This document shows, in pieces, positions 5,019 to 36,635 of a stretch of 64,000 nt of DNA. Numbering within the stretch: the stretch's first letter is position 1; every line of letters begins with the position of its first letter. The notes under the pieces were generated by a model. It worked only from the letters and a program-made list of their open reading frames with translations. It was not told the origin of the DNA and made no database searches. The position numbers and the translations under genes were made by a program. The DNA lies in contig NZ_BTFW01000001.1 in the NCBI RefSeq assembly GCF_033242265.1, forward strand, positions 1,772,501 through 1,836,500. The letters are read 5' to 3'. Origin of the DNA: Novosphingobium sp. IK01 (lineage in GTDB: Bacteria > Pseudomonadota > Alphaproteobacteria > Sphingomonadales > Sphingomonadaceae).

Positions 5019-5166
5019 CTCCCCAGCCGGGCCGACCCGCCACCGGTTGTGCAATGCACCAATTGCTGCAATAAACCTTGCGGGTGCAGCATCCCGGACG
5101 GGATGGGCAGGTTCGTACACCGGTCGGGCCGCCGGTGGTGAAAACCATGCCTGGAGACTTGCGCCC

Positions 5167-32337: not shown

Positions 32338-32376
32338 TGAAGCGCCCCGGGTTTCCCGGAGGCATTTTCAATTGAG

Positions 32377-33299
32377 TCATGCAACCATATCGAGGGTCTC
32401 TCTGGCTGCATAGTAGTTTGCCTCGGCCTCGGCGGGCGGGATGTAGCCGATGGGGCCGAAAAGGCGCTGGTTGTTGAACCAATCCACCCAGCGCAGGGTT
32501 GCTATTTCGACTGCCGATGCGCTTGGCCATGACCTCTGACGCCAGATCACCTCGGTTTTGTAGAGGCCATTGATGGTCTCGGCCAAGGCATTGTCATAGC
32601 TGTCGCCGACGCTGCCGACCGATGGTACGAGGTTGGCTTCGGCCAGACGCTGGGTGTAGTTCATGGCGAGATATTGAACGCCCCTGTCGCTATGGTGGAT
32701 CAGGCCATCTTCCGGCCCTGGCCTGCGGGCTTGTATCGCCTGCTCCAAGGCGTCCAGCACGAAGCCGGCGGTAGCCGACGTGCTGACCTTCCAGCCCACG
32801 ATCCGGCGGGCATAGGCGTCGATCACGAAAGCTACATAAACGAAGCCGGCCCAGGTGTGGACGTATGTAAAATCGACCACCCACAATGCGTTGGGACGTT
32901 CAACGCGGAACTCGCGATTGACTTTATCCAATGGGCACGGGGCTTTCGGATTGCTGACCGTGGTGATCGTCGTCTTGCCACGCCGAGCGCCCGCCAGCCC
33001 CATGGCCGCCATCAGGCGCTCCACGGTGCACCGGGCGACAGCCACGCCATCGCGCAGCAACTGGTGCCAAACTTTGCGTGCTCCATAGAGCCCGGAACTG
33101 GCCTCGTGGACGCGCTTGATCTGCGCCTTGATCTCGTCATCACGACGGGCACGCGCGGGGCGCCTGCCGGGATCGACCAGGCGACGTGCATGTTCATGGT
33201 AGGAGGACGGGGCGATCGCCAACTCATGGCAGATCGGCTCGATACCCAGATCCTCACGATGGGCGTCGATGAACGACATCATCATTTCTCGCGGCGGTC
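32377..33299 (-). CDS. IS3-family transposase OrfB (separated from OrfA)
   Basis: About 307 residues of the native frame. An HTH_21-type N-terminus (SFIDAHREDLGIEPICHELA) is followed by an rve integrase core with the DDE triad in WVVDFTYVHT, HHSDRGVQY and NALAETINGLYKTE. The open frame continues upstream to 33336, but those 12 codons belong to the IS110 insertion. OrfB would normally be made by frameshifting from OrfA, now impossible because 1.16 kb separates them. Confidence 0.9.
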
Positions 33300-33314
33300 G
33301 AGTATCCGTCTTGG

Positions 33315-34253
33315 TCAAGGGCGAACAGGTTGCCAATCGCGTCCTTCACGCAACAACGTGTTTGCCAGAACGATGATGCGCCGCATGACGGCGGTGATAG
33401 CCACCTTCTTTGCTTTCCCTGCATTTACGAACTGCTGATATTTGTCACGGAAATCATGATTGAAGCGAATGGCAACCAACGCAGGCATGTAAATTGCCCG
33501 TCGAAGTGATGCCCTACCACCAATAATCCGCTCTTTGCCTTGCCACTTGCCTGACTGTTGCGTCATAGGCGCAAGCCCAGCCAGAGCGGCGATCTTTTTG
33601 CTGTCGAGATGTCCAAGCTCTGGCATGTCGATCACCAACGTGGTCGCGGTCAATCTGCCGATCCCGGGAATGGTCATGAGGCGTCTGATGCGCTCATCAA
33701 GGGTGCCACGCTGCTGAGCGATCTGCGCAATCACTTGATCCAGGGCTTTGATGTCCGTGTCGATGTCATCGATCCGGCGGCAAAGTTGGTCCTTCACAAG
33801 CGGGTTGCTCGCTGTGGCGAGACGCGTCTTTGCGGTGATCTGATCTTTGACCATGGCCCGCCTAGCTGTCAGCAACTCTCTGAGATCATGAATATCTTCG
33901 CCTTCAATGCCTTGTGGGGCCAGATCAAGGACCACGCCCATTCGTGCCAACATCCTGGCATCAACGCTGTCGGTCTTGGCCAGACGGCCGATAGCCTGAG
34001 CAAAGCGCCGCGCTTGCTTCGGATTGACCTTGATGAAAGGCTGCCCCGCCAAGCTGAGGTATCGTTCAAGCCCACGATGATATGCGCCGGTCGCCTCGAA
34101 AACGACCAACACCCCCTTATTCTTACCCAGCCATGTGCATAGCTGGGCGAAACCCTCAACCGTGTTGGGCAGGCTGAGTGCTGCGTCTTGGGAATGCCAA
34201 AACGCATCCAGGCGGTCTTTCGACACGTCGATCCCGATGGTATCCTTGGCCAT
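33315..34253 (-). CDS. IS110-family bridge-RNA-guided recombinase (DEDD plus serine)
   Basis: 312 residues. The RuvC-like N-terminal domain shows Asp9 (GIDVSKDRLD), Glu53 (VFEATGAYH) and Asp95/Asp98 (KTDSVDARMLARMG). A helix-hairpin-helix motif follows (MTIPGIGRLTATTL). The C-terminal Tnp domain carries the nucleophile candidate Ser249 (GGRASLRRAIYMPAL). It is complete and all catalytic positions are present, so the element may be active. Its stop codon overlaps the -35 half of the junction promoter. Confidence 0.92.
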   Translation of the reverse strand: MAKDTIGIDVSKDRLDAFWHSQDAALSLPNTVEGFAQLCTWLGKNKGVLVVFEATGAYHRGLERYLSLAGQPFIKVNPKQARRFAQAIGRLAKTDSVDARMLARMGVVLDLAPQGIEGEDIHDLRELLTARRAMVKDQITAKTRLATASNPLVKDQLCRRIDDIDTDIKALDQVIAQIAQQRGTLDERIRRLMTIPGIGRLTATTLVIDMPELGHLDSKKIAALAGLAPMTQQSGKWQGKERIIGGRASLRRAIYMPALVAIRFNHDFRDKYQQFVNAGKAKKVAITAVMRRIIVLANTLLREGRDWQPVRP

Positions 34254-34257
34254 CTCT

Positions 34258-34430
34258 TCTTTCTACCTTTGCTTGTCGTTCGGGCCCGGAGCCCACGTAT
34301 CCGTTCAGGTCGTAAGAAAAGACGGAGGCTCGCCAAACTCGACCGCGGTCCTGCAAGACCAAGCTCCGCACGGCGCCGCCTCCGCCACAACCCGGCACCG
34401 CAGCTGCGGTGCCGGGTTGTGGCTCCCTTT
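34258..34430 (-). ncRNA. Bridge RNA of the IS110-family element
   Basis: Read on the minus strand: a 20-bp perfect stem (34384-34423), then a target-binding loop, then a donor-binding loop. Target loop: outer stem GGC..CGCC/GGCGaGCC (34380-34372, 34334-34327); left guide GCGGAGCT (34369-34362) identical to the left target; hairpin GGTC/GACC; right guide GCGGTCGAG (34346-34338), the complement of the right target. Donor loop: left guide ACGGATAC (34304-34297) identical to the element's right end; hairpin GGGC/GCCC; right guide GACAAG (34277-34272), the complement of its left end. RNA ends are approximate. Confidence 0.88.
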
Positions 34431-34450
34431 TGCCTCAGGAGCCGGGAATT

Positions 34451-34456
34451 CTCATA
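34451..34456 (-). promoter_or_regulatory. -10 half of an excision-dependent junction promoter
   Basis: TATGAG near the left end pairs with TTGACC near the right end (33313-33318, minus strand). When the two ends are joined through the CT core in a circle, the spacer is exactly 17 bp (10 + 2 + 5). In the integrated form the two boxes are 1.1 kb apart in the wrong order, so bridge RNA and recombinase would be driven mainly from the excised circle. Confidence 0.75.
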
Positions 34457-34463
34457 AGACAAG

Positions 34464-34766
34464 CTCCGCCATCGCAAAATACGCTGATGCCTTGCGCAGG
34501 ATCTCGTTGGCGCGCCGCAGTTCCTTGACCTCGCGCTCCAGCAGCTTGAGCCGGGCCTGGTCATCGGCGGCCAGCGCCGCTGGTGCCGTTCGTCGGCTCG
34601 CCTCCTCACGGCATCAGCGGCGCAGAGTCTCGGCCGTGCAGCCAATCTTGCTGGCGATCGAGGTCATCGCCTCCCACTCCGAGCCGTAATCGGCGCGATG
34701 CTCGCCAACCATGCGCACCGCGCGTTCGCGGACTTCAGGTGAAAACTTGTTCCGGGTCTTGTTCAT
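34464..34766 (-). pseudogene. IS3-family OrfA with internal stop, cut by IS110
   Basis: The frame starts [20 protein letters not shown] and continues through an HTH_Tnp_1 domain ([15 protein letters not shown]). It then meets an in-frame TGA at 34616-34614 where a Trp is expected. It resumes with [20 protein letters not shown] and the leucine-zipper end [14 protein letters not shown], and is cut there by the IS110 element. OrfA binds the IS ends and initiates OrfAB by frameshift; here it is doubly dead. Confidence 0.85.
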
Positions 34767-34781
34767 CACGAAAGCTCCTTC

Positions 34782-36635
34782 TCACAAATCGGAGCCTCCG
34801 GGAAACCCGGGGCGCTTCAGTTCACGAACCATCATTGGTATGTTCTGAAATGCGTCCTCCACCAACGCCGGATCTTCGGCCTTTCCGAAGTACCAACCCT
34901 GAAGAAAATCGCACTTCATTGAGGCGAGAAGTTCGGCTTGCGCGCGCGTCTCCACGCCCTCGGCGACGATGGTTTTTCCCAGTTTGTGGCCGATTTCGAT
35001 AATGCCCTGTACGATGGCCAGATCATCGGGTGCCGAGACGATATTAGCGACGAAGCTTTTATCGATCTTGATGCGGTCGAGCGGCAGCTTCTGCAAATGC
35101 GTCAACGAGGCATAACCTGTACCGAAATCATCAAGCGCAATCATGACACCGGCGTCGTGCAAACAATGTAAACCCTTGTGCAGGAGTTCATGACTACGCT
35201 CAAGAAACATGCCCTCGGTCACCTCGACGCAAAACCATTCGGGGGGGATACCGGTTTCGCGTGACAGTTCGAAAAATCGGTCGAGGAACTGGTCCGATCG
35301 GAAATCGGCATTGGTCAGGTTGATCGCGATGTGGCCGGGTCTAATCCCGAAGTTCCGTAGCTTGACGGCATCTTGAAACACCTGCTCCAACATAAATCTG
35401 CCAAGGGCAGCGGCTGTAGATTTGTCCTCAAGCGCTGCCTGAAACATCTCGGGCGTCAGGAGGCCACGGGAGGGATGCCTCCAACGCATCAGCGCCTCAA
35501 GCGATGGCGGTTGCGTGAGATCGAGCGGAACGACAGGTTGGTAAAACAGTGCCAACTCGTTGCGACGAAGCGCGACCTCGATCTCGCCCAGGAGTTCTGC
35601 CTTCTGGTCGAGCGCTACCTTCAGCTTAGCCTCGAAGAACTCTATGCGGTCCCGGCCCAAATACTTCGCATGGTAAAGTGCCATATCCGCTGCCTTGAGC
35701 AGCGCCGACAATGTGTCCCCATGATCGGGATATCTGGCGATCCCGATACTCGCCGAGCAGCGGCGCAACGTCCCACCAAAACGAATCGGCCGACGAATCA
35801 CTTCAAGTATTTCATTAAAGAAATGCACTGCCTGATTGTCATCCATACCGGTGACAACGAAACCAAATTCATCGCCGCCGAGACGCGAGAGTGAACCATT
35901 CTCGCCTTTCTGCACCATCAGCCTTGAGGACATGGTCTGCATTATCAGGTCACCAACGTCATGCCCGAAAGCGTCGTTGATCTCCTTGAAAGCATCGATA
36001 TCCATGAGAGCGAGGTAAAATGGCGCTTCCTGCCCTGCGCCTTCCGCAAGCAGGTCCGTAACGACCTCTCCAAACCTGCGGCGGTTGGGGATACCGGTCA
36101 AAGGATCAATGTTGGCAAGCGTATCGAGTTGCTTGTTCGCTGCCCGCAAATCCTCCTCGATCAGTTTGCGTTGTGTGACGTCGAAGCGGATCGAGGTGTA
36201 GCTATCGACCTTACCGGTTTCCGTGATGTGCGGCACGATCGTCGTGTCGACCCAGTAGAGTGTGCCATCTTTGCGCCGGTTGCAGATTTCTCCATGCCAG
36301 TTCAGACCATGCGCGATTTGGCGATATATCTGCCGGAAAAATTCTGTTCTATGAATTCCGGAGTTGAGGATGCGGTGGTTGGCTCCGATCAGTTCTTCCT
36401 GCGTATATCCACTGATCTCGCAGAATTTCTGATTAACGAAGGTGATCGTGCCCTTGATGTCCGTAATGGCAACGATGGCCGCACTGTCGAGGGCATAGCG
36501 GATGAAGTCTTCGTTTCCACTGTAATGCGGATGCGTGGAACCGTCGCCCATCTCACTTACCATCCACCGCCGTTTAGGGGCTTCCATCACCACGCCTCCC
36601 ACCTGTTCTAAGCAAAATCCTACCTTGTGCAACAC
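34782..36635 (-). CDS. PAS-GGDEF-EAL cyclic-di-GMP signalling protein, C-terminus replaced by IS
   Basis: 617 residues: a PAS/PAC sensor (~45-160), a GGDEF domain with intact RLGGDEFGF (253-257), and an EAL domain with SLEALMRW, DDFGTGYASL, KIDKSF and EGVET. It has signatures for both making and breaking cyclic-di-GMP. The last ~11 codons (KRPGFPGGSDL) come from the IS3 terminal repeat, so the native tail is lost, but the catalytic domains are complete. Base composition is clearly less GC-rich than the left half of the window, which suggests transfer. The start is uncertain; MEAPKRRW 16 codons in is also possible. Confidence 0.88.
   Translation of the reverse strand: MLHKVGFCLEQVGGVVMEAPKRRWMVSEMGDGSTHPHYSGNEDFIRYALDSAAIVAITDIKGTITFVNQKFCEISGYTQEELIGANHRILNSGIHRTEFFRQIYRQIAHGLNWHGEICNRRKDGTLYWVDTTIVPHITETGKVDSYTSIRFDVTQRKLIEEDLRAANKQLDTLANIDPLTGIPNRRRFGEVVTDLLAEGAGQEAPFYLALMDIDAFKEINDAFGHDVGDLIMQTMSSRLMVQKGENGSLSRLGGDEFGFVVTGMDDNQAVHFFNEILEVIRRPIRFGGTLRRCSASIGIARYPDHGDTLSALLKAADMALYHAKYLGRDRIEFFEAKLKVALDQKAELLGEIEVALRRNELALFYQPVVPLDLTQPPSLEALMRWRHPSRGLLTPEMFQAALEDKSTAAALGRFMLEQVFQDAVKLRNFGIRPGHIAINLTNADFRSDQFLDRFFELSRETGIPPEWFCVEVTEGMFLERSHELLHKGLHCLHDAGVMIALDDFGTGYASLTHLQKLPLDRIKIDKSFVANIVSAPDDLAIVQGIIEIGHKLGKTIVAEGVETRAQAELLASMKCDFLQGWYFGKAEDPALVEDAFQNIPMMVRELKRPGFPGGSDL

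Follow-up and report, generated by a model that had tools for sequence, protein, structure and literature searches.

How does a mobile element that finds its sites through an RNA of its own settle on a lasting address, and what may make an address a good one? The question is raised by an insertion sequence (IS) of the IS110 group in Novosphingobium sp. IK01 (assembly GCF_033242265.1), which interrupts an IS3-family element on the minus strand of a stretch of 64,000 nt of contig NZ_BTFW01000001.1 (positions 1,772,501-1,836,500; hereafter the window, from whose start all coordinates are counted). An original prediction for this locus had read, in the leader of the element, a bridge RNA with guides for both target and donor, and had described the whole as an RNA-guided recombinase with both specificities legible. 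We consider it about 95% probable that this is indeed a mobile IS110-group element moving by bridge-RNA-guided recombination, and what we observe directly is its anatomy, its use of sites, a conserved fold of the leader, covariation of guides with targets, and the presence of empty as well as filled sites. Judged by the guide covariation, the fold and the empty and filled sites, the proposed interpretation appears well supported. Its mechanistic part appears right but its novelty was overrated, as the mechanism has been published for IS110 elements and IS621, along with bridge RNAs that covary with both their targets and their donors (PMC11208160, PMC11208158). Overlooked was that the target is a hairpin of the IS3 frameshift element; the new part is the address itself and why that address may be good.

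The element spans 33303-34463 (1161 bp including one CT core, limits set by six copies with exactly the same sequence in the genome), and a second core CT follows on its far side at 33302-33301. Its recombinase (33315-34253, minus strand, 312 amino acids) matches DEDD_Tnp_IS110 and Transposase_20 in Pfam (PF01548, E 2e-21; PF02371, E 5.8e-22), and combines the DEDD RuvC-like N-terminal domain with the C-terminal domain carrying a conserved serine that are expected of the IS110 group. Among solved chains, phmmer lists ISCro4 (9t56, E 2.8e-29) and IS621 (8wt6, E 7.9e-28), followed by an unrelated third chain at E 0.57, and places D9, E53, D95, D98 and S234 of the recombinase (residue numbers counted by hand) opposite D11, E60, D102, D105 and S241 of IS621, mutation of which abolished recombination (PMC11208158). 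The non-coding ends also follow the IS110 group, with 210 bp on the left from core to start codon (given as 208 bp in the original prediction) against 12 bp on the right before the core; the IS1111 arrangement is the opposite, with the long end on the right.

The termini are CT-TGTC on the left and GACGGATA-CT on the right, as had been read before, and CT stands at both junctions of all six intact copies without any target duplication beyond this core dinucleotide. The left end (34443-34463) comprises the core CT, the right donor TGTC and a -10-like TATGAG, and the right end TTGACCAAGACGGATA-CT (33301-33318), which is strongly conserved across relatives, a -35-like TTGACC overlapping the stop codon of the recombinase gene (tnp), the left donor ACGGATA and the core CT. 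When joined, right and left ends read TTGACC-N17-TATGAG, which agrees with 9 of 12 consensus bases by eye and may function as a promoter; a promoter scan of the integrated stretch found none, but it required the second hexamer to end in T and would have rejected TTGACC-N17-TATGAG too.

Downstream of this putative promoter, the leader is predicted to encode a bridge RNA of ~190 nt on the minus strand (34254-34443, both ends putative). The region proposed earlier, 34258-34463, is confirmed in its location but not in its exact span, the first ~20 bases of which contain the -10-like part of a putative circle-junction promoter, while the donor stem extends into the start codon. The RNA folds into two 5' stem-loops, a smaller one (34443-34421) and a long one (34385-34422), followed by a target-binding loop (34323-34384) and a donor-binding loop (34251-34324), each with a guide pair around its own small apical hairpin, as had been claimed. 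Within the target loop, basal stems enclose the left target guide TGCGGAGCT (34362-34370), whose letters are those of the target top strand, the apical hairpin (34361-34347) and the right target guide GCGGTCGAG (34346-34338), which is the complement of CTCGACCGC. The donor loop carries the left donor guide ACGGATAC (34304-34297) and the right donor guide GACAAG (34277-34272), complement of CT-TGTC. All four strings thus lie where the original prediction had them, that of the left target guide as GCGGAGCT at 34369-34362, and the target had been read correctly as GATGGCGGAG-CT-CGACCGCCG. Their order is that of IS621-type bridge RNAs, with which the strand sense also agrees.

Chance is a very unlikely origin for these matches. 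In 100,000 first-order Markov sequences of leader composition and 190 nt length, the four strings occurred singly in 1287, 276, 25 and 7315 cases and all together in none. The matches had also been called independent, which is weakened for the two target guides because both halves of the target share GCGG/CCGC. The folding of the leader is also far from random, at -103.6 kcal/mol and a z-score of -5.92 for 34443-34254 (0 of 200 shuffles as good), and the fold is conserved with compensatory changes: over 30 distinct leaders, the RNAalifold consensus has 30 pairs, both partners vary in 23 of these, and 94.4% of the consensus-pair cells are paired, compared with 81.8% (standard deviation 0.6) in shuffles, which ignore the relatedness of the leaders, and with 34-49% (maximum 48.5%) when partners are slid.

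A further argument comes from relatives, in which the guide loops change together with the targets and, in a few cases, with the donors. We gathered 37 loci from genome contigs and, from plasmids, 57 matching records, 12 regions of which were fetched; a search of phage records returned no match. Under strict E-value limits, and with this genome included each time, the element type occurs in 3 of 149 genomes of the genus, 5 of 396 of the order and 4 of 385 of the class. For a permutation test we kept readable leaders other than those of L054 and L059, which have lost their left end, and of L066, whose core is altered. The remaining 45 rows, of which nine were read by eye, reduced to 31 distinct ones. 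In 29 pairs on each side, guides matched their own flanks at 158 of 203 positions on the left (permuted mean 83.3, standard deviation 9.1) and at 127 of 174 on the right (78.2, standard deviation 5.8), values that none of 20,000 permutations reached on either side. Nor was any permutation as good when a single element was drawn per distinct guide (11 left and 14 right; 200 draws of 500 permutations each).

Comparisons inside clades give the clearest cases. L096 and L098, which share a genome, carry the guides GAAAACG/CTCTAGC and GAAACCG/CTCTAAT and are flanked by GAAAACG and CTCTAGC and by GAAACCG and CTCTAAG, respectively, and the right flanks of L065 and L074, where the guide reads CTCA, differ accordingly from those of L068 and L069, where it reads CTCG. 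On the donor side, the left donor guide is changed to ACAGATAC together with a right end ACAGATA in five relatives (L057, L086, L087, L088 and L093), and L095 pairs a left end CTTGCC with a right donor guide GGCAAG. Both loops would accordingly qualify as those of an IS621-type bridge RNA, as far as sequence comparison tells, the target loop by its match and covariation with insertion sites and the donor loop by its match and a covariation drawn from few changes only.

Several observations weigh against the guided reading. The donor covariation rests on a small number of changes and has an exception in L066, where an altered core goes with a donor mismatch; the first base of the left target guide mismatches most sites, including the window's own; guide matches are poor in L062 (1/6 right), L101 (3/7 left), L094 (3/7 left) and L095 (3/7 and 3/6); the right flank does not fit the guide in L088 and L093; and the IS3 flanks of four of the seven copies in this genome are nearly identical, so that these copies may have been carried along as IS3::IS110 units.

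Some relatives are also irregular in structure. In L088 and L093 the left end lies in IS3 but the right end adjoins CTTGTCTTTCC, whose first letters resemble the left end of the element itself; a rearrangement in which the donor loop acted on a look-alike may be the cause. Upstream of the L094 recombinase, a left-end segment of ~66 bp is repeated in tandem (by eye), and two plasmid matches, L090 (NZ_CP084407.1) and L091 (NZ_CP084952.1), cover no more than the first ~170-180 bases of the element, lack an annotated recombinase next to them and are possibly lone left ends. We also considered a REP-like (repetitive extragenic palindromic) target for the sister clade L062-L079 and dropped it, as its motif AAGCGGNCNTTCGC gave 16 matches in five genomes against 13 in the reversed control.

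Could the structured leader serve solely as a translation switch for the recombinase, with the guide matches a coincidence? Such a role has been proposed for ISPpu9, where folding of the 5' untranslated region limits translation of tnp (PMC8450116), and it would suit the donor-loop basal stem, which pairs CGTCTTTTCTT with GAAGAGATG-side letters and takes in the start codon (34253-34251). Since this stem is poorly aligned, we judged it on single-leader folds only: it is present in 22 of 24 distinct leaders (exceptions L070 and L074) and includes the start codon in most, which lies outside it in L092 and L094. The stem may act as a switch of this kind, but regulatory and guide roles are compatible and the former does not remove the latter; with guide letters that change along with flanks and ends across relatives, a purely regulatory leader is hardly credible.

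The bridge-RNA reading being preferred, we turn to the address it specifies, GCGGAG-CT-CGACCGCC. It lies in the host IS3, whose 5' part (34464-34819) holds a terminal inverted repeat (34794-34819), OrfA up to its AEL codons, in the frame that the uninterrupted IS3 of L110 indicates, and the left target GCGGAG, and whose 3' part (32338-33302, with Pfam matches to rve and HTH_21) holds the right target CTCGACCGCC, the remainder of an ALIL pseudoknot, OrfB and the other terminal inverted repeat (32338-32363). The ALIL pseudoknot of Rfam (RF01497) we take to be the frameshift element of IS3. In alignments of L125 and L110, positions 16-32 of its model form the hairpin GGCGG-AGCUCGA-CCGCC, and it is this 5' hairpin that constitutes the target, with the CT core in its apical loop. 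A full-length ALIL scoring 90-119 bits is present at 10 of 11 uninterrupted sites examined, the lone exception being a site in this genome (L131), which has no ALIL at the gathering score. Of 12 filled loci scanned, six lie in IS3, and five of these retain a weakened match of 62-80 bits above the threshold (L005 falls below), which in the host IS3 of the window covers 33323-33210 with 61.7 bits, and none of the six outside IS3 reaches the threshold.

The target is conserved letter for letter. Across 396 genomes of the order, the codon pattern YFAx(x)AE[L/F]DR, which permitted other codons, retrieved uninterrupted sites in 23 genomes, 36 in all, of which 34 read GCGGAGCTCGACCG exactly. An RNA constraint seems to explain this conservation better than protein constraint alone, common descent of the IS3 copies being the alternative. 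Use of the site is biased: for the close element type, 38 places were counted (L007 and L008 as one; L013 and L058 seem to be the same place), 29 with an IS3-like flank and 9 elsewhere. A left flank could be read at 28 places and is IS3-like at 20 of them; the other 9 of the 29 were recognized on the right flank alone, a criterion that overlaps the guide.

In place of RNA guides, the recombinase might recognize a hairpin or an inverted repeat in the target DNA (GGCGG...CCGCC), the leader strings being by-products. The usual target is indeed an inverted repeat, and foldable sequences such as REP and attC are targets of other family members, but the non-IS3 sites L004, L006, L046, L083 and L086 keep most of the guide-matching letters and not the full repeat (by eye), and in relatives whose guides differ, the sites differ too and fit those guides, which makes recognition of structure alone highly improbable.

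Within this genome, a search with the recombinase gave 12 rows: six identical full copies (over 1161 bp), two halves of one interrupted copy, and four other IS110 rows at 28-33% identity. Three of the identical copies and the interrupted one sit in one type of IS3, another (L005) in a second IS3 type and two (L004 and L006) outside IS3. The interrupted, seventh copy (L007/L008, contig C3 of the genome, 49483-51852) is split by other DNA near recombinase codon 124-132. All six full copies are inserted at GCGGAG-CT-CGA, including the two whose flanks are unrelated to IS3 (AGTAGCGGAG and CTCGATGCTC at L004, CGAAGCGGAG and CTCGACCGGC at L006), so that identical copies with an unchanged target loop at unmatched sites, which the original prediction had named as evidence to the contrary, were not found. 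The right flank of L004 occurs in none of 40 other genomes searched for an empty site. L006 corresponds to the 3' end of flhB (translated flank, named by eye), and 10 of 11 aligned congener loci are colinear and uninterrupted across the junction, the other aligning only beyond it; none of the ten colinear loci contains GCGGAGCTCGA.

No uninterrupted GCGGAGCTCGA occurs in the assembled genome, compared with three occurrences in the reversed control. (A near-match search allowing three mismatches, with 994 + 950 hits against 1457 + 1437 in the reversed control, missed a known one-mismatch site and was not used.) In a search for IS3 OrfB, which gave eight rows, all five that keep the OrfB start adjoin the element, and the others are two C-terminal pieces and a relative at 31% identity. 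The only site here that matches the AE[L/F]DR codon pattern (L131) reads GCTGAG, in a diverged sequence without an ALIL match that is identical to the filled flanks at 98 of 150 and 48 of 150 positions, and one Novosphingobium IS3 has a TT core. Saturation of the target is thus seen in this genome and not elsewhere: of the 30 genomes and records that bear the element, 10 also have uninterrupted sites, 11 in total, and 9 of these read GCGGAGCTCGACCG. An escape of IS3 from targeting is unsupported as a general claim, as outside this genome 9 of 10 uninterrupted sites still have these letters.

A further possibility is that the element rarely enters IS3 itself and that transposition of IS3, or homologous recombination, has spread the many IS3-borne copies as IS3::IS110 units. 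The four near-identical copies interrupted alike in this genome are what this would produce, and because such units may have spread together they do not count as four independent events; flanks beyond IS3 differ among the units, which are therefore at different places. Inverted copies seem to have recombined as well: the right flank of the IS3::IS110 copy at ~3013700 of genome contig C1 (L003) equals the inverted left flank of that at ~3025900 (L005), and since the flanks are swapped and inverted, the ~12-kb stretch between them was probably inverted by recombination. Against this stand 18 different IS3-type right flanks used as sites among the 29, the use of the same letters at non-IS3 sites, and Paracoccus yeei, where free IS3 copies are identical to filled ones at 150 of 150 positions on both sides of the junction (each against its nearest match). 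We regard spread as units as an unlikely general account. The element is present on a plasmid as well: a 99.8% identical copy in IS3 lies on a conjugative plasmid of Novosphingobium capsulatum (L082, NZ_CP140002.1, 45176-46336), an identity that suggests recent exchange.

Under guided recombination, then, excision would join right and left ends into the promoter-like TTGACC-N17-TATGAG, from which the RNA of ~190 nt would be transcribed off the left end and bound by the recombinase. Its first loop would address the target and its second loop, through ACGGATAC and GACAAG, the element's own joined ends, and the DEDD/serine recombinase would catalyse strand exchange at the shared CT without duplication of bases. 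The element would land mostly in IS3 copies because its address coincides with the 5' hairpin in the frameshift pseudoknot of the IS3 family, and insertion would open the apical loop of this hairpin and break both OrfA and the frameshift signal, from which we infer a loss of IS3 activity.

This scheme resembles IS621 in the recombinase family, the five catalytic residues, the CT core and the RNA in the left end, as well as in the 5' stem-loop, the target and donor loops, the guide order and strand sense (PMC11208160), and, given the promoter-like TTGACC-N17-TATGAG, possibly in a promoter formed by joined ends. The two are distant in sequence (E 7.9e-28), IS621 targets REP sequences whereas the main target here is the IS3 ALIL hairpin, and the right target guide can match 7 bases past the core, compared with 2 in natural IS621. 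ISPpu9 of Pseudomonas putida, which has the regulatory small RNAs Asr9 and Ssr9 (PMC8450116), likewise differs in targeting REP. Closer in habit is ISEc21, an IS110-family element with an upstream non-coding RNA (seekRNA) that inserts into a conserved stretch of certain IS3-family transposase genes, and whose relative ISMch6 is a case of natural redirection (PMC11187229); its site, however, consists of the codons around the second D of the DDE motif and not of the OrfA end and frameshift hairpin, and its seekRNA is reported to have 74 nt (PMC11187229), against a predicted length of ~190 nt here. Our literature search, which reached few subscription journals, turned up no publication on an IS110 element that targets the ALIL hairpin.

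Two neighbouring features of the window may be mentioned. A PAS-GGDEF-EAL gene (34782-36635) is apparently cut at its 3' end by the host IS3, its last codons being read from the IS3 end, and a candidate nhaA-I riboswitch (RF03057, 43.4 bits) lies at 5082-5137.

What, then, might make the hairpin a good address? We tentatively suggest that an IS110 lineage has fixed its guides on the IS3 frameshift hairpin and is a specialist parasite that switches IS3 off, where IS3 could not easily change the target letters because coding and RNA pairing constrain them simultaneously. In the ALIL pseudoknot, the internal loop pairs with the apical loop. As the right target guide shares the letters GGUCGAG with this internal loop, it is likewise conceivable that the bridge RNA also pairs with IS3 mRNA and disturbs frameshifting. 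The locus and its relatives form a clean natural data set on bridge-RNA specificity: identical copies occupy sites of which some are related and others are not, one strain has empty sites identical to its filled ones, a single genome holds two copies with different guides, and some of the donor changes are matched. The recombinase and its RNA could be tried as a tool with a long right target guide. The locus also suggests an answer, open to test, to the question of how a lasting address is chosen by such elements: in this case the address is an RNA hairpin that another mobile element conserves to the letter, and targets of this kind may form a class that is hard to change.
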